A stretch of 64,000 nt of DNA. It comes from Bacteroidales bacterium. GTDB lineage: Bacteria; Bacteroidota; Bacteroidia; Bacteroidales; Bacteroidaceae. The notes under the pieces are model-generated. The model saw only the letters and a list, made by a program, of their open reading frames with translations, ran no database searches and was not told where the DNA came from. Position 1 is the first letter of the stretch; every line of letters starts with the position of its first letter. Of this stretch, positions 5,513 through 64,000 are shown in pieces. The translations under genes and the position numbers were made by a program. The DNA is taken from NCBI GenBank assembly GCA_012517855.1, contig JAAYUD010000088.1, positions 1 to 64,000 of the forward strand, read 5' to 3'.

Positions 5513-5560
5513 GAGAGGGATAAATCATTCTACATTTGGAATAGCTTATCCCTCTCAATA
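5513..5560 (+). terminator. hairpin after the NfnAB-like gene
   Basis: Perfect 11-bp stem (GAGAGGGATAA at 5513-5523 with its complement at 5546-5556), 56 bases past the stop. The following bases are AT-rich without a clean U-run, so termination efficiency is uncertain. Confidence 0.5.
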
Positions 5561-5597: not shown

Positions 5598-5804
5598 AAT
5601 ACACTCGTCCACATACGAATCGGCTCTTTATATACCCACAGAGCATCATTTAGACCAATTCTAAACAGAGGTCCGCTGAAAATAAGGACTCTACAGCATG
5701 CTCTTAGTGCGATTTTCGCACCTTTTTCCGCTGGCGTTGTATACGGTGTACCGTTAACATACTGTATGGCAGCGCCGTATGGTGTCACACGGAGGTGGCA
5801 AAGG
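5598..5804 (+). repeat. interspersed repeat module R1, copy 1
   Basis: About 205 bp that recurs at 36628-36832 and 47762-47965, with the same ordered blocks: CGTTCTAAA-like box, GTCCGCTGAAAATAA, CGCTGGCGTTGTATACGGTG, CGTTAACATACTG, TATGGTGTCACACGG, GGCAAAGG. The minus strand of each copy carries a short open frame (starting MTPYGAAIQYVNGTPY here), which I regard as a by-product of the repeat. It forms the left part of the 5598-6490 island. Confidence 0.8.
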
Positions 5805-5920
5805 AGAAATATAAAGATTTAATTGGATACATATTCCCTTCCCTCTTTTACCGATGAATGCAGAAATAAGTTAAAAGTAAATGCTGAGCAAGCAATTTAC
5901 TTTCCAGAACACCTTAAACA

Positions 5921-6240
5921 ATGAATATCCCACAAGATTCTGATACTTTCTTATCCTGATATACTCTACAAGGCTTTATAGCGCACTATTCTCGCTACCG
6001 TTTCAACGATCTAATGTAAAGCAAATTAGAACAAGACATAAATAGGCCCTACTTAATTAATTGATATACAGCGATAAATTCATAAGGACGAAAATAAAAG
6101 TTTATACTTACAAACATTTATTTTCGTCCTTATGATTTTTTATGTTCGTCCTTATCATTTTTCGAAAGCACAGCTTCAATTCTGCGCATTGATAAGTATA
6201 CTTCAGCATGGTTAAGAAAGTATCAGTATTGCTTTCAATA
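5921..6240 (+). repeat. interspersed repeat module R2, copy 1, with long hairpin
   Basis: Shares ATTCTGATACTTTCTTATCC at its left end and GTATCAGTATTG at its right end with 36991-37315; a degenerate copy lies at 47356-47550. The core is a perfect 19-bp inverted repeat, 6080-6098 with 6117-6135 (TCATAAGGACGAAAATAAA). It is followed at 6145-6158 by a third arm, TTCGTCCTTATCAT, which could pair with the first arm instead. Confidence 0.8.
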
Positions 6241-6420
6241 TTCACCCTCAGAAACGTTCTAAAATCGACCTTGAGATAACCACTTGCGAATCAGAACGAT
6301 ATTATGTCATGGGGTATGCACCACGCAAAAACACAGAAGCAAACCTTCTTTAAATAATTGGCAAATTTCAACAAATCAATGTATTCATTACACATCCTAA
6401 AACGACTTATGTCCTTAAAA

Positions 6421-6490
6421 TTGGTGACGTCCATACGTTTTCAGAAAAACTTAAGGACGTCACCGAAAAAACTAACATACGACAATTGAA
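6421..6490 (+). repeat. interspersed repeat module R3, copy 1
   Basis: The constant right part AAGGACGTCACCGAAAAAAC plus TAACATACGACAA is shared with 37391-37424, 47588-47620 and, inverted, 63567-63630. In this copy the left arm is GGTGACGTCC (6423-6432), pairing with GGACGTCACC (6455-6464). The remainder of the gap to 6654 is AT-rich with nothing recognised. Confidence 0.75.
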
Positions 6491-16665: not shown

Positions 16666-16796
16666 GCGACCAGCTTTAAACAAGTATTGGCCGGAAAAGG
16701 CAACTCTGATTACCTAAAAGTCAAACGTTCTTAATTTCTAAAATACACCATACCTCAGTTCGAAATAAGGATACTATCGTCAACAAAATAACTAAC

Positions 16797-16906
16797 GTAT
16801 GTCGCTGCCATAACTAACGGAAGTTACTGCGGTAACTAACGGAAGTTATTGTGATAACTAACGTTAGTTTTGTCTAAAACATACGTTAGTTATGGCTGCG
16901 ACATAC
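16797..16906. repeat. palindromic repeat module R4, complete copy A
   Basis: A 110-bp element with 22-bp inverted ends (16797-16818 and 16885-16906; one mismatch) beginning GTATGTCGCTGCCATAAC. The interior repeats GGAAGTTA and TAACTAACG several times, so nearly the whole element is self-complementary. A second 110-bp copy lies at 63419-63528 and a fragment at 37463-37484. One outer flank carries the same CAGACG / T-run border in all three. The rest of the 16666-17141 gap holds no gene I can support. Confidence 0.85.
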
Positions 16907-17111
16907 GTCTGTTTTTTGAGGATACCAAGAAAAGGCAAAGACAATTCTATAATAAATACAATAACTGGGTGGCAATTCAATAAATTAAGCTCTCTATTTG
17001 ATGCTGAAATAGAAAAGCGCCATTTACTATTCAATAGGAGAAAAGCCAGACGTATGAAAAAGAAGCATTCAGTTTTCTAAGAAAATCAAGCAGAATATGC
17101 AAACTATTCAT

Positions 17112-27031: not shown

Positions 27032-27119
27032 TAGCGTCTCACAGTTGTGATACACCTGTCGCACAATTGTGAGACAATAGTCGCACACCCGTGATACACT
27101 TGTCTCACAGCTGTGAGAC
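27032..27119. promoter_or_regulatory. four 22-bp tandem units, each with a TCACA-NN-TGTGA-type dyad
   Basis: Exact 22-bp periodicity: units at 27032, 27054, 27076 and 27098. Each has a 16-bp imperfect palindrome of the form TCKCACANNYGTGAKA at 27037, 27059, 27081 and 27103; the last (TCTCACAGCTGTGAGA) is perfect. Units 1 and 3 end GTGATAC, units 2 and 4 end GTGAGAC, so a 44-bp higher-order period is visible. It lies 45-132 bases upstream of the -7 box of the radical SAM gene. Spacing by about two helical turns would place bound dimers on one face of the DNA. No protein is known to bind it; operator function is inferred. Confidence 0.75.
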
Positions 27120-27163
27120 AATAAATTTGTATTATACAAATGAATAATATAAACAAATTATAT

Positions 27164-27171
27164 TATCTTTG
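27164..27171 (+). promoter_or_regulatory. -7 element before the radical SAM gene
   Basis: TATCTTTG, 31 bases before the ATG, without a good -33 box (AATG at the expected place). This fits a promoter that depends on an activator, such as one bound at the upstream array. Confidence 0.55.
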
Positions 27172-27202: not shown

Positions 27203-27811
27203 ATGAAAACTGCTACACTCATAGGTATCAATCGCCACCGCCTCACCATCGATGGTGAAGGTGTTACAACACTAGTGGCCTTTCATGGATGCCCACTTCG
27301 TTGTAAATACTGTTTGAATTCACAATGCCTACACACCGACGGAAAATGGAAAAGATTCAGTTGCCAAGAACTTTATAACGAGGTCAAACAAGATGAGCTA
27401 TATTTTCTTGCCACCATGGGCGGTGTTACTTTTGGCGGAGGCGAACCATGTCTACAAAGTACGTTTATACGTGAGTTCAGAGAGCTTTGCGGTTCGCAAT
27501 GGCAAATTGCAATCGAAACGTCATTAAACGTTCCGCTCAAACATCTAGAAGAATTGTTGCCGGTAGTCAATCAATATTACGTGGACATTAAGGATATGGA
27601 TAAAGAGCGCTATTATAAATATACGGGCCAAAAGAACGATAATGTCATCGCCAATCTCAACTGGCTCATTGAACAAGGGAAACGAGATAACATCACAGTA
27701 CGTGTGCCTGTCATTCCGTTGTACAACACGATACAAGACACGGAAGAAAGTATCAAGCAATTAAAAATGATGGGACTTTTTCGTTTTGATCAGTTTACAT
27801 ATCTTACTTAA
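27203..27811 (+). CDS. radical SAM enzyme, glycyl-radical-enzyme-activase-like (PflA/NrdG type)
   Basis: 202 residues. The [4Fe-4S]/SAM motif is CPLRCKYC (Cys30, Cys34, Cys37), preceded by TIDGEGVTTLVAFHGC as in PFL-activating enzymes. GGVTFGGGEPCLQ (residues 73-85) is the SAM-binding GGE motif. Later parts (YYVDIKDMDKERYYKYTG, VRVPVIPLYN) also match activases. It lacks the extra ferredoxin domain of larger activases. No glycyl-radical enzyme gene is adjacent; instead a Cys-rich TonB-domain gene begins 14 bp after the stop. The substrate is therefore unknown and could be that protein or an unlinked glycyl-radical enzyme. Confidence 0.85.
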   Translation: MKTATLIGINRHRLTIDGEGVTTLVAFHGCPLRCKYCLNSQCLHTDGKWKRFSCQELYNEVKQDELYFLATMGGVTFGGGEPCLQSTFIREFRELCGSQWQIAIETSLNVPLKHLEELLPVVNQYYVDIKDMDKERYYKYTGQKNDNVIANLNWLIEQGKRDNITVRVPVIPLYNTIQDTEESIKQLKMMGLFRFDQFTYLT

Positions 27812-36017: not shown

Positions 36018-36497
36018 ATGAAAAAAGTTATTTTATTTTTTATGCTGCTCCTGTCTGTTGCAGGTATTGATGCTCAGTCACTCAAAGTAGCTCCGAGTTT
36101 TACGATGAATACTCCAGACGGTAAAAGCATTGTCCTTGCCGATTATGTCAAAGGTCACAAAGCAGTGCTTATCGACTTCTGGGCATCGTGGTGTGTACCA
36201 TGCCGCAAAGAAGGGAAAAATGTAAAAGCTATCTATGCCGATTATCACAGCAAAGGATTTGAAGTCCTCAGCGTTTCGATGGATAATGATGCTGCCAAAT
36301 GGAAAAAGGCAATTGAAGAAGAAAGCTACCCTTGGGCACAAGTTTCTGACCTGAAAGCATTCAAGTCGCCCATCTGCAAACAGTATAGTATCATGGCTGT
36401 ACCCTGCCTTTACCTAGTCGATGAGAACTTAAATGTCATAGCAATCAATCTACGAGGTGAAGCTCTACGCAATAAGATTGCAGAGATCTGCAAATAG
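36018..36497 (+). CDS. TlpA-family thiol-disulfide oxidoreductase, exported
   Basis: 159 residues. Signal peptide MKKVILFFMLLLSVAGIDA, cleaved before Gln20; thioredoxin/AhpC-TSA fold with the redox pair in FWASWCVPCRKEG (Cys59, Cys62) and the cis-Pro region in YSIMAVPCLYLVD. The extra Cys in AVPCLYL next to the cis-Pro is unusual. It probably acts in the periplasm as a disulfide reductase for cytochrome maturation or other exported thiols. It has its own -7 box and terminator, so it is a single-gene unit. Confidence 0.9.
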   Translation: MKKVILFFMLLLSVAGIDAQSLKVAPSFTMNTPDGKSIVLADYVKGHKAVLIDFWASWCVPCRKEGKNVKAIYADYHSKGFEVLSVSMDNDAAKWKKAIEEESYPWAQVSDLKAFKSPICKQYSIMAVPCLYLVDENLNVIAINLRGEALRNKIAEICK

Positions 36498-36513
36498 CTG
36501 ATATATAATTCAT

Positions 36514-36568
36514 ATAAAAGAAAGCTGATTGATATTTCAAAATATTGATCAGTTTTCTTTTATTATTT
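36514..36568 (+). terminator. terminator after the TlpA-like gene
   Basis: A 22-bp stem with several G-U pairs (from 36514, closing at 36563), starting ATAAAAGAAAGCTGATTG and followed by TATTTA, 17 bases past the stop. Confidence 0.7.
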
Positions 36569-36627
36569 ACCTCTGCTCGAAATAAGAAAAGTGGCTCATT
36601 GGTAGAATCTAGGAGGTAGATGTAAGA

Positions 36628-36832
36628 GTGATTGCCGAAAATGTAAATCGGCCGCTCAGCTATCTGTAGAGGCCCGTTTAGAATCGTTCTAAATAAACCC
36701 CTACTGGAAATAACGTTCCTACAATATGCTCTGGGGCCGATTTTTGGACCTCTTTCCGCTGGCGTTGTATACGGTGCATCGTTAACCCGCTGTGTGGTAG
36801 CGCGTAATGGTGTCATACGGAAGTGACAAAGG
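36628..36832 (+). repeat. interspersed repeat module R1, copy 2
   Basis: Matches 5598-5804 and 47762-47965 in block order (CTCAGCTATCTGTAG, CGTTCTAAATAA, CGCTGGCGTTGTATACGGTG, AATGGTGTCATACGG, TGACAAAGG). First module of the most complete composite island, 36628-37490. The minus-strand frame across it (MTPLRATTQRVNDAPYTTPA) parallels the frame in copy 1. Confidence 0.8.
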
Positions 36833-36990
36833 TTGAAAATATAATTGTTGTGCAGGAACAAGATTCCATAAACAACAACGTAAATGTTGTCTTATTTCTA
36901 CATAAATAGTTTGACTATTCACCCTATTGATACAGAAACAAACGATGATACAATGCTTTGCATGCAATCTCTTTTCCGAACATATTTCAA

Positions 36991-37315
36991 AGTGAACATC
37001 CCCCAATATTCTGATACTTTCTTATCCCAACCTAAGCCACAGACCTTGTAGGACACTCTTTCCGTTATTGTTTTACCGCACAAATATAACTCGAATCAGA
37101 ATAAGGCATGAATATACCGCACGTAAATCATTGATAGACAGCGAGAAATTCATAAGGACGAAAATAAATGTTTCTAGTTACAAACTTTAAGTTTCGTCCT
37201 TATGAATTTTTATTTTCGTCCTTATCATTTTTCGGAAACAAAGTGTCGATTTCGCGCATCTGAAAGTATCACCTCGATATGGTTAAAATAGTATCAGTAT
37301 TGTTCCCGATAAATC
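36991..37315 (+). repeat. interspersed repeat module R2, copy 2, with long hairpin
   Basis: Shares ATATTCTGATACTTTCTTAT at the left and GTATCAGTATTG at the right with copy 1. Hairpin arms 37149-37163 and 37192-37206 (TTCATAAGGACGAAA; 15 bp perfect). The third arm is TTTTCGTCCTTATCATTT at 37213-37230. The loop sequences differ from copy 1 while the arms are kept. Confidence 0.8.
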
Positions 37316-37360
37316 GGTTTTTGTCTTTATCCTTCCAAAACGTCGTATGTTCCTAAAAAT

Positions 37361-37424
37361 GTTGTCGTATGTTAGTTTTTTCGAAAACTTAAGGACGTCA
37401 CCGAAAAAACTAACATACGACAAC
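37361..37424 (+). repeat. interspersed repeat module R3, copy 2
   Basis: Perfect 23-bp inverted repeat, 37361-37383 with 37402-37424 (GTTGTCGTATGTTAGTTTTT plus TCG); loop 18 bases. A fragment of module R4 (GTATGTCGCAACCATAACTA) follows at 37463-37484 before the susD-linked tlpA gene ends. Confidence 0.85.
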
Positions 37425-37506
37425 GACGACTATGGTCTTATTTCACCTTGCAAAAAACAGACGTATGTCGCAACCATAACTAATAATTGATTTATTTCTA
37501 ATTTTT

Positions 37507-46257: not shown

Positions 46258-47247
46258 ATGGAAACTGTATTAAGCGGGATTCGCCCAACCGGTAACTTAC
46301 ATTTGGGCAACTATTTTGGAGCAGTGAAAAGTTTTGTACAAATGCAAAACGAGTACGATTGTTACTTTTTCATTGCTGATTGGCACTCTTTGACGACGTG
46401 CCCCAAACCCGAAGATATACAGCGTAGCGTCCGCACTATTCTGGTAGAATATTTAGCCTGCGGTATCGACCCCGAGAAAGCAACTATTTATATGCAAAGC
46501 GATGTGAAAGAAATTCTTGAACTATACCTTTTCTTTAACATGAATGCTTATCTTGGTGAATTGGAACGGACAACGACCTTCAAAGAAAAAGCCCGCAAAC
46601 AGCCCGATAACGTTAATGCCGGACTGCTGACCTATCCGACGCTAATGGCAGCGGATATTCTGATTCATAAAGCCGACAAAGTTCCTGTAGGTAAAGATCA
46701 GGAACAGAACATGGAAATGGCACGTCGATTTGCACGTCGGTTCAATACGATATACGGTGTGGAATTCTTTAAAGAACCCCAATCGTTCTACTTCTCGGAG
46801 AAGGCCCTCAAGGTTCCTGGACTTGACGGCTCAGGCAAGATGGGCAAATCGGAAGGCAATTGCATCTATCTGAAAGATGAGCCCGATGTTATCCGCAAGA
46901 AAGTGATGAAAGCCGTAACAGATAATGGTCCACAAGAGCCGAACAGTCCGAAACCGGAAGTAATAGAAAACCTATTCACCTTCCTCGGCATCGTATCAGA
47001 CAAAGAGACTTATGACTACTTCAATGAGAAATGGAATGATTGTTCTATACGCTACGGGGACCTCAAGAAAAAGATAGCTGAAGATATCGTAGCCTTCAAT
47101 ACTCCTATTCGCGAAAAGATTCAAGAATTCTCTGCCAACCAAGCACTTCTTGATAAAATTATCAACGAAGGTGCCGACAAAGCGCGCGAGCATGTGCAAA
47201 AAACGATACGTGAAGTCAGAGAAATAGTAGGATTCAGAACATACTAA
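46258..47247 (+). CDS. trpS: tryptophanyl-tRNA synthetase
   Basis: Class I synthetase charging tRNA-Trp. METVLSGIRPTGNLHLGNYFGA contains the HIGH-type motif HLGNY; GLDGSGKMGKSEGNCIYL has the KMSKS-type loop; GKDQEQNMEMARRFARRFN is the family's dimer/tRNA block. 329 residues from the Met at 46258, the usual N-terminus; the ATG at 46246 (MLNNMET) is also downstream of the predicted transcription start and cannot be excluded. Single-gene unit with its own promoter and a strong terminator. Confidence 0.96.
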   Translation: METVLSGIRPTGNLHLGNYFGAVKSFVQMQNEYDCYFFIADWHSLTTCPKPEDIQRSVRTILVEYLACGIDPEKATIYMQSDVKEILELYLFFNMNAYLGELERTTTFKEKARKQPDNVNAGLLTYPTLMAADILIHKADKVPVGKDQEQNMEMARRFARRFNTIYGVEFFKEPQSFYFSEKALKVPGLDGSGKMGKSEGNCIYLKDEPDVIRKKVMKAVTDNGPQEPNSPKPEVIENLFTFLGIVSDKETYDYFNEKWNDCSIRYGDLKKKIAEDIVAFNTPIREKIQEFSANQALLDKIINEGADKAREHVQKTIREVREIVGFRTY

Positions 47248-47273
47248 GTCTACTCTATTTATTATAAACCACA

Positions 47274-47316
47274 ACAAAGGAGCATTGCATACACTTGCAA
47301 ATGCTCCTTTGTTTTT
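47274..47316 (+). terminator. terminator of trpS
   Basis: Perfect 12-bp stem (ACAAAGGAGCAT, 47274-47285, with 47301-47312), a 15-base loop, then a run of Ts. Located 26 bases after the trpS stop. Confidence 0.88.
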
Positions 47317-47355
47317 CCAATAAGCTATCTCGAAATTGTTTTTCGGATTAGAGAG

Positions 47356-47622
47356 GTGAACATTCGCCAACATTCTGAGACTTTCTTATCAGAGCCCAAG
47401 AGAAAAAGCCTTGTAAAGCACTATTTTTGTACTATTTTCACCGATCGAGTGTAAACCTGATCAGCATAAGCACATAATCACAGCACCTGCAACACATTGA
47501 TAAACAGCGAGTGTGTTTGTCCTTATCATTTTCAAAACCACATATGGACCTAAAATTGTTGACGTCCATACGTTTTTAAAAAAACTTAAGGACGTCACCG
47601 AAAAAACTAACATACGACAATT
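47356..47622 (+). repeat. interspersed repeat modules R2 (degenerate) and R3, copy 3
   Basis: The left end (GTGAACATTCGCCAACATTC, then CTGAGACTTTCTTATC) matches module R2. The two long hairpin arms are lost and only the third arm (GTCCTTATCATTTTC, 47519-47533) remains. R3 follows: TGACGTCC (47560-47567) pairs with GGACGTCA (47590-47597), then AACTAACATACGACAA. In this island R1 comes after R2-R3 instead of before. Confidence 0.7.
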
Positions 47623-47761
47623 TTGGGGTTCACCAATAAAGTGAGAGGATGGTGATGTAACATGTGCAGCAAGTATCACAACGATAACCTTCGGGAAAGT
47701 ATTGCATTTCCATGCCCACCAATTTTCATCGAAAATGAAGTGCGTATCAAAAAGAAGTGGA

Positions 47762-47965
47762 GCACACTCGTCTATATACAGACAAGGCCCTCAGCTATCT
47801 GCAGGCTGTCTTTTAGATCGATTTTAAAAAGGGTCTGCTGAAAATAACGTGTCCACGATATGCGCTTGAGCCGATTTTGAGGCTTCTTTTCGCTGGCATT
47901 GTATATGGTGTATCATTAACATACTGTGCAACAGCACGGTATGGTGTAATACGGAAATAACAAAG
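47762..47965 (+). repeat. interspersed repeat module R1, copy 3
   Basis: Same block order as copies 1 and 2: ACACTCGTCTATATAC, CTCAGCTATCTGCAG, GGTCTGCTGAAAATAACGTG, CGCTGGCATTGTATATGGTG, GTATGGTGTAATACGG, CAAAG. It is the most diverged copy; the minus-strand frame is interrupted sooner. Confidence 0.75.
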
Positions 47966-63397: not shown

Positions 63398-63418
63398 TAT
63401 AATGGTAAAAAAACAGAC

Positions 63419-63528
63419 GTATGTCACCGCCGTAACTAACGCATGTTACTGCGGTAACTAACGGAAGTTATCCTGACAACTAACGTTAGTTTCTCCAACA
63501 ACATCCGTTAGTTACCGCTGCGACATAC
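63419..63528. repeat. palindromic repeat module R4, complete copy B
   Basis: 110 bp, the same length as 16797-16906, with 22-bp inverted ends (63419-63440 and 63507-63528; several mismatches) and interior TAACTAACG / GGAAGTTA units. Both outer flanks carry an A-run or T-run border followed by a CAGACG- or CAACCG-like box. It is the first module of the inverted composite island at the end of the window. Confidence 0.8.
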
Positions 63529-63566
63529 GGTTGATTTTTTGCAAGGCAAGACAAGTCACAGCCGCC

Positions 63567-63630
63567 GTTGTCGTATGTTAGTTTTTTCGGTGACGTCCTT
63601 ATGTTTTCGGAAAAACTAACATACGACAAC
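63567..63630 (-). repeat. interspersed repeat module R3, inverted copy 4
   Basis: Perfect 20-bp arms GTTGTCGTATGTTAGTTTTT (63567-63586) and complement (63611-63630). Read on the minus strand, 63568-63673 matches 37321-37424 including the flank CTTTATCCTTCCAAAACG, so the whole island is an inverted copy of the one at 36628-37490. Confidence 0.8.
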
Positions 63631-63639
63631 ATTTTTAGG

Positions 63640-64000
63640 AGCATATGTCGTTTTGGAAGGATAAAGACAATACGGATTTATTGAAGTCGCCGGTTGTTAC
63701 TGATACTTAAAGATACCTAGTGTAGATATGTAAAACCTCGTTTTTTCTATTTTAGTTACGAAAACGTTTCTGTCACCGTTACTGGTTGTATATCAGACAC
63801 ATACGTGCATACGACGCAAAAAATGGGACACGAAAAGCATGTCTTCTCAGTGAGAATCAATGCGTTATGATTTCTCTCGAATTCGCCCTGATAATGGGCG
63901 ATACAAGGGGGTGATGAAAGTGGCGTGCGAGAATTCTTTTTCTAGCCTCGTTTTCAGAAGTGAATATGGAGAGCAATACTGATACTATTTTAACCATACC
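63640..64000 (-). repeat. inverted remnant of module R2 reaching the window end
   Basis: On the minus strand, GGTTAAAATAGTATCAGTAT at the very end (63976-63998) matches 37279-37298, and a second, weaker match (AGTATCAGTAACAACCG) lies at 63690-63706. The ~270 bases between them hold no gene I can support. The repeat probably continues beyond the window. Confidence 0.6.

Follow-up and report, generated by a model that had tools for sequence, protein, structure and literature searches.

The 64,000-nt stretch of Bacteroidaceae DNA analyzed here (the window) holds four islands built from the same repeated modules, R1 to R4, and these raise the question of what kind of element the islands represent, from where they derive and whether they serve the cell. 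The initial annotation read them as diverged copies of one ancestral element, either a non-autonomous mobile element or a structural RNA element. We addressed the question by profile and alignment searches of the window, of the source genome (3.64 Mb in 114 contigs) and of related genomes.

Modules and islands in the window and the source genome

Self-BLAST of the window shows that the modules recur across its islands far beyond chance (E down to 4e-74), and profile coordinates place each module within about 20 bases of the annotated position. Island 1 comprises R1 (5620–5804, plus strand; model positions 2–186, 178 bits), R2 as the core of a foldback element (5922–6234, plus; model 1–313, 245 bits) and R3 (6402–6484, plus; model 2–84). 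Its R2 copy contains an internal 64-bp palindrome (6076–6139; self-inverted BLAST 87.5%), the center of which reads in flipped orientation, and a terminator-like hairpin (5513–5556; self-inverted BLAST 77%) lies between the upstream gene and the island. Island 2 carries R1 (36648–36834, 186 bits), R2 (36993–37307, 268 bits; internal palindrome at 37146–37209, self-inverted BLAST 84%) and R3 (37339–37422, 72 bits) on the plus strand; the piece of R4 annotated there amounts to 30 bp on the minus strand (37454–37483; 20 bits, BLAST 97% to 16886–16918). A hairpin followed by a T-run (36514–36563; self-inverted BLAST 84%) separates this island from a ResA-like gene. For island 3, the profiles agree with the annotated order R2-R3-R1 on the plus strand (R2 at 47357–47511, model 1–153, 72 bits; R3 at 47537–47618, 71 bits; R1 at 47786–47965, 154 bits), R2 being represented by its 5′ half only. 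Island 4 had been described as inverted, and R4 (63409–63539, 128 bits), R3 (63569–63651, 68 bits) and the part of R2 inside the window (63970–64000) are indeed all on the minus strand. Extension past position 64,000, proposed to see whether this island continues, completes R2 (contig C38, 63970–64285, 256 bits) and adds R1 (64447–64632, by profile) on the same strand. A solo R4 occupies a tandem gap at 16787–16916 (plus, 125 bits).

The islands had also been described as free of protein genes. We found no convincing gene in them, yet two open reading frames overlap islands: a 138-aa frame with a TTG start (36445–36861, minus) lies over R1 of island 2 and a 125-aa frame (46996–47373, minus) overlaps island 3. 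Moreover, R1 itself bears the 3′ end of a gene family. A gene on the minus strand of R1 was considered and rejected; its consensus is open over a long distance, but the frame is stop-free in only 5 of 41 copies and shows no third-position excess.

A search of the source genome with one query returned at least 40 islands (the best 40 of 190 candidates were scored). First-look searches with single modules scored 40 of 63 candidates for R1, 40 of 115 for R3 and 40 of 61 for R4, so that the module counts given next are lower bounds. The profiles were then applied to 97 merged stretches chosen around hits (495,772 bases, ~0.5 Mb) and located R1 at no fewer than 46, R2 at no fewer than 64, R3 at no fewer than 73 and R4 at no fewer than 40 places. 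Many contigs, among them C12, C19, C23, C24, C34, C35, C43, C55, C82, C89 and C105, start or end in or beside R2 or R1. The draft assembly thus breaks at these modules, and the copy numbers are likely underestimates.

The searched stretches hold 108 islands, 62 of which contain two or more modules. The commonest build is R2-R1-R3 on one strand (16 of 62; two of these carry a piece of R4). In 14 aligned copies with the spacing R2-(166)-R1-(60)-R3, homology is unbroken over ~810 bp and includes a conserved linker of ~166 bp; terminal inverted repeats of the whole composite were not seen in this alignment. The order R1-R2-R3 that had been taken as ancestral does occur, but in a minority of 4 of the 62 islands with several modules; three of these four lie within the window or at its end. 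Other builds are R2-(~408)-R3-(9)-R4, R2-(~318)-R3-(32)-R4 and R2-R3-R1. The proposal of an ancestral element of ~0.9 kb therefore survives as a composite of ~0.8 kb with the order R2-R1-R3, and not as a single order R1-R2-R3-R4. Common order and boundaries, by which one element was to be told from independent repeats, are likewise found in part: some copies have the same order and spacing, and every module also occurs alone (R4 in 15, R2 in 14, several of them at contig ends, R3 in 11 and R1 in 6 islands). Further repeated segments lie between and around the modules and, together with the several builds, they characterize the islands as mosaics with some fixed blocks. One such repeat (module 8; C40, C86, C19 and C12) has eight members of up to 573 bp and adjoins R4 where we looked. 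Another (module 12), with an array of the palindrome CACATATGTG, has four members (C70_53328, C107_57700, C52_34944 and C110), of which three lie beside VapE remnants, one of these remnants being weak (E 0.026).

HU-HIG sequences in R1 and the inverted repeats of R2

R1 is the tail of an HU-HIG gene and consists of its last ~23 codons (~70 bp) and ~160 bp of 3′ flank, a descent that was missed when the modules were described as gene-free. HU-HIG genes have undergone large expansions in Bacteroidetes. On contig C66, an intact member of the family (PF18291; L316:5504–6121) runs into R1 (6095–6281). It is divergent from a VapE-like/DUF3874 gene (L316:4030–5223; PF05272, PF12990), and CACGTG palindromes lie between the two. 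Genes for an AAA ATPase and a DUF4435 protein (L316:2107–4002), which we take to be a possible defense pair, are located directly beside this intact unit. A segment of the window, 27036–27167, resembles the CACGTG palindrome array (64–65%) and lies upstream of an open reading frame at 27203–27811.

Comparison at the DNA level matched all 44 compared R1 copies to the C66 unit (source included; 43 of 43 others), and 42 of the 43 others match its 3′ end. The left edges of these 42 copies cluster ~20 codons before the stop codon, at reference positions 847–852 in 13 copies and 856–861 in 18, mostly upstream of the first position of the R1 profile (~892); five copies start at position 885 or later and gain little beyond the profile. 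R1 of island 1 has homology to reference positions 874–950. In island 3, homology to the final ~23 codons of the HU-HIG gene on C66 covers 47740–47808 (plus, DNA alignment), and 47740–47965 aligns at 77% identity to L303:2041–2266, where the HU-HIG gene ends at 2109. At C30 and C70:28k, the start of an HU-HIG gene and its 5′ flank are joined straight to the tail, which constitutes an internal deletion.

At the DNA level, 5 of 45 R1 copies have remnants of HU-HIG coding sequence on their upstream side and 0 of 45 on their downstream side (p 0.056 for this contrast alone). Protein searches revealed decayed remnants adjoining R1 at C84, C66:52k, C56, C64 and C71. HU-HIG coding sequence thereby stands beside 11 of 52 R1 copies, one intact and ten decayed, where the 52 copies are the 46 profile places, C84 and five fetched later, and C66:52k, C56, C64 and C71 were taken because the protein search had matched there. 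Flanks of R2, R3 and R4 away from R1 hold such sequence in 1 of 194 instances (28 + 28 + 36 + 36 + 33 + 33), namely the C17 unit described below. The HU-HIG protein of C17, whose gene has no R1, ends ...CKGPFPIFRRMGGTTSSVYV... (MGG..SSVY motif); the C-terminal motif is therefore native to the HU-HIG gene. Among 15 HU-HIG loci from a PF18291 search of the source genome, one has R1 (L303), and the R2, R3 and R4 profiles found nothing on the 15 stretches L316–L330 around HU-HIG loci and related places. HU-HIG loci fetched from three further genomes (G004, G059 and G027) are alike within each genome. Our literature searches yielded no paper that connects repeats or mobile units with HU-HIG genes or VapE/HU genes.

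Complete R2 measures ~480 bp, with outer ends of the type TGC[AT]CACCCCATTGAC[AG] on both sides. Among 51 long copies, 8 have both ends, at a spacing of 474–488 bp (at most four mismatches per end); two further copies with ends 530 and 532 bp apart rest on weak ends. The end motif occurs at 39 sites in the genome, compared to 0 for a reversed control pattern. The center of the internal 64-bp palindrome is in forward orientation in 33 of 49 copies and flipped in 7. R2-type ends also bound a unit of 2,532 bp (C17:7883–10414). Its inverted repeats extend over ~115 bp at 83% identity (manual count) and score 133; shuffled sequences score at most 36. Enclosed in the unit are an intact HU-HIG gene (PF18291), a VapE/DUF3874 remnant and a gene that by eye resembles ketopantoate reductase; no transposase was seen inside it. 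Since the ~115-bp inverted repeats are common to both, R2 stands to the C17 unit as a MITE stands to its longer relative, and the suggestion of a non-autonomous element fits this anatomy of R2. Target-site duplications could not be read by eye; the flanks past the R2 ends are often repeated as well, so that the boundaries of R2 are nested. Descent of R2 from the 3′ end of VapE, at which the C17 junction hints, was rejected, as 0 of 44 copies beat 95% of shuffles upstream of the inverted repeat.

Placement of the islands and tests for a role in RNA or transcription

All islands had been placed just beyond the 3′ ends of operons. This position is enriched but not universal: a gene 3′ end borders 72 of 78 module-bearing gaps and 75 of 96 other gaps (Fisher p 0.011), where control gaps measure 60 bp or more and come from the same stretches, and genes were called by a simple ORF rule. 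Module gaps are convergent in 26, tandem in 46 and divergent in 6 cases, compared to 16, 59 and 21 for the other gaps (p 0.0015 for convergent against divergent). Median distances to the first module are 152 bp on the side of a gene 3′ end and 260 bp on the side of a 5′ end. Relative to tandem neighbors, R2 is oriented at random (13 same, 12 opposite). Of 98 gene 3′ ends, 25 have a terminator-like hairpin at a distance of up to 120 bp, and in 22 of these 25 the module lies past the hairpin. Such a placement is more readily explained by insertions tolerated downstream of transcription units than by a role in transcription.

The gap between mutL and trpS spans 848 bp in the source genome and holds island 3. 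In B. graminisolvens (L194) the corresponding convergent gap is ~105 bp long and contains one hairpin (trpS named by eye), and thus provides an empty orthologous site in one distant relative. At another mutL locus (L201), ~0.9 kb at the orthologous gap reads by eye as another gene. The four module profiles found nothing in 80 named mutL loci. Against GTDB contigs, the best segment of source MutL reaches at most 63% identity to named taxa such as Bacteroides and Mediterranea, which points to a Bacteroidaceae.

The alternative proposal of a structural RNA element failed on covariation, on Rfam matches at gathering thresholds and on the random orientation of R2. For R1–R4, an APC-corrected G test gave no pair above the null that is pairable in at least 90% of copies; a few compensated variants are visible by eye in the R2 stem. 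Matches to Rfam at low thresholds are sub-gathering and mostly fall on palindromes. RNAalifold z scores against column-shuffled alignments are strongly negative for the two strands of R2 (−18.5, −44.2) and R4 (−9.3, −13.5), but both modules are palindromes and the scores were therefore not taken as evidence for RNA. The corresponding values are −2.1 and 0.1 for R1, 0.2 and −1.0 for R3 and −0.3 and −1.7 for the linker. R4 forms a near-perfect palindrome whose ends are an A-run and a T-run, as expected of a bidirectional terminator (for example the solo copy of the window and the copy in island 4), and the gaps that contain it are convergent in 15, tandem in 16 and divergent in 0 cases. The idea that R4 marks the center of a longer inverted repeat found no support: 2 of 15 solo copies scored above the shuffled maximum, with margins of 2 and 6 points.

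Exchange between copies, distribution and origin

Among the 14 copies of R2-R1-R3, distances computed separately for the three modules and the linker show no correlation (Mantel r −0.15 to 0.17), which indicates that the modules are exchanged separately. Linkage disequilibrium (LD) between neighboring sites is 0.08–0.30 and decays with distance. At 30–59 bp it reaches 0.03 for R2 (floor 0.02), 0.03 for R3 (floor 0.01), 0.05 for R1 (floor 0.03) and 0.12 for the composites (floor 0.08); for R4 it stays at 0.12–0.17 at all distances, above the floor of 0.03. Since LD decay alone could reflect a star-like burst with recurrent mutation, we determined the length of identical runs between copies. Pairs of R2 copies share identical runs of up to 106 bp and are elsewhere 64–74% identical in seven of the eight longest cases and 85% in one. 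Most long R2 runs cover the conserved palindrome, for which the column-shuffled null (maximum 72) allows, and one is located at the 3′ end. Pairs above the null maximum are clearly in excess for R2 (24 of 1176), R3 (39 of 2485) and R4 (19 of 496), and weakly for R1 (2 of 820) and the composites (1 of 91). A star-like burst could produce the low LD, but it would leave the long identical stretches unexplained. The simplest account is an exchange of short ectopic patches between copies, and the tracts of ~100 bp that are identical in copies mostly 64–74% alike form a natural record of this process.

The repeats gave no match in 60 relatives (at most the best 8 candidates per genome scored), in 300 family genomes drawn evenly (best 2 candidates per listed genome scored; this set overlaps the 60 relatives, and both sets lie outside the source genus) or in plasmids and phages, and the exact R2 pattern with 26 specified bases was absent from GTDB contigs. 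These searches need ~65–75% identity or an exact pattern, and diverged relatives may escape them; at this sensitivity, the repeat family is lineage-restricted and so far known from the source genome alone. Searches of that genome for Y1_Tnp and DDE_Tnp_1 found no mobilizing enzyme with R2-type ends. Y1_Tnp gave 0 matches, in a search that was positive in 5 of 14 control genomes. The single DDE_Tnp_1 gene (C84, L300:1039–2286; IS1380-like by eye) adjoins an R1 copy broken near position 77, and R2, R3 and R4 are absent from its stretch; most simply, the gene is an insertion into R1. At C102:1–434, R1 breaks off at position 39, and the first 49 bases of the contig match the transposase end exactly. 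R1 may act as a landing site for insertion sequences.

We consider it probable that the islands are MITE-like, gene-depleted mosaic derivatives of HU-HIG units and special to the source Bacteroidaceae lineage. According to this model, R2 would be an internally deleted relative of the 2.5-kb C17 unit, and deletion of the HU-HIG gene body would have left the tail as R1, while R3 and R4 would be further palindromic repeats that joined R2 and R1. Composites such as R2-R1-R3 would have been copied around the chromosome by an enzyme acting in trans, with HU-HIG itself or a lost transposase as candidates, and would have come to rest past the 3′ ends of genes, the positions at which they cause the least damage. 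The copies may later have decayed, exchanged short patches by ectopic recombination or gene conversion and flipped their palindrome centers. We infer both the spread by transposition in trans and the status of the gene-bearing units as parents rather than relatives. The anonymous repeat would thereby gain a partly traced origin, a piece of a gene for a DNA-binding protein together with the foldback ends of a gene-bearing unit.

Three other explanations compete with a derivation from HU-HIG units by copying in trans. Independent repeat families could have piled up in permissive intergenic spots, by nested insertion or clustering of the kind known from neisserial repeat arrays, such that the composite never moved as a unit, as the solo copies of R1–R4, the many orders and strands and the uncorrelated module distances in R2-R1-R3 copies would suggest. 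The constant spacings of ~166 and ~60 bp and the conserved linker in 14 aligned copies argue against such a pile-up, the linker is recognizable by eye beside HU-HIG remnants (L300), and later exchange would also render the distances uncorrelated; we regard this explanation as unlikely, though a serious contender. Rather improbable in our judgment is the view that decayed HU-HIG/VapE loci were duplicated by homologous recombination without transposition, R2–R4 being remnants of promoters or operators. It would account for R1 with its HU-HIG remnants, for the palindrome array between VapE and HU-HIG genes and for the similar multi-copy HU-HIG loci within G004, G059 and G027. However, single islands dispersed between unrelated genes and the empty site require a copying step, the R2–R4 profiles are blank on L316–L330, and the C17 unit with R2-type ends lies elsewhere.

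A function in cis at operon ends, in the form of structured RNAs, terminators or 3′-end stabilizers under selection, appears very improbable. The bias toward convergent and tandem gaps, the A-run/T-run palindrome of R4 with its lack of divergent gaps and the folding of R2 and R4 above shuffles are what such a function would predict, but it is contradicted by the lack of pairable covariation and of Rfam matches, by the balanced orientation of R2, by modules lying past existing terminator-like hairpins in 22 of 25 cases and by their absence from the 60 relatives and 300 family genomes searched. Going beyond the derivation from HU-HIG units, HU-HIG and VapE/DUF3874 could together form a selfish mobile or replicating unit that has long inverted-repeat ends and lacks a conventional transposase, in which the HU-HIG protein binds the palindrome arrays and of which the islands are gene-less offspring spread by the same machinery. 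We hold this extension to be speculative and quite improbable; if true, it would assign a testable role to a functionally obscure Bacteroidetes family.

Compared to MITEs in general, the modules are short, multicopy (R2 at 64 and R1 at 46 places in the searched stretches) and without a functional gene; terminal inverted repeats were found for R2 only, and its ends are shared with an HU-HIG-bearing unit rather than with a transposase-bearing element (Y1_Tnp and DDE_Tnp_1 searched). The islands carry the C-terminal coding end of PF18291 in R1 but no intact gene of this family. We did not assign them to REP, NIME/Correia or BrickBuilt elements, with which they have a broadly similar mode of operation, because the defining motifs or partners of these families were searched for and not encountered.

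REP sequences of the GTAG and CGTC classes are, like the modules, palindromic and intergenic, and the CGTC class, present in Bacteroidetes among others, is reported to lack a dedicated transposase (PMC3733652). They measure 20–40 bp, however, compared to 84–480 bp for the modules, and the Y1_Tnp family of RAYT has no match here. In NIME, dRS3 and RS modules form arrays in intergenic islands of 0.2–2.7 kb that are proposed to promote recombination, and Correia elements look like part of a transposase gene (PMC3898611), much as R1 looks like part of an HU-HIG gene. In contrast to NIME, the modules here are larger, fewer and partly ordered, and the remnant is of HU-HIG and not of a transposase; dRS3, ATTCCC(N8)GGGAAT, gave 0 matches in the window (at most one mismatch). 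The BrickBuilt MITE of Porphyromonas gingivalis, with 19 intergenic copies of leader-repeat-tail structure in ATCC 33277, shares with the islands the order Bacteroidales, intergenic location, modularity, long stem-loops, restriction to a species and lack of an internal transposase (PMC4596501). BrickBuilt is defined by a 23-nt tandem repeat and by ends of the GAGACCTTTGCA type that correspond to insertion sequences of the IS5 family; the islands differ in that their copy number is roughly threefold higher, one module derives from a gene and the ends are shared with an HU-HIG unit. Ends of the GAGACCTTTGCA type gave 0 matches in the window with at most one mismatch. In place of the 23-nt core, TRF reports a 22-nt unit in 1.9–2.1 copies for islands 1 and 2, and it also detects a 14-nt unit outside the modules.
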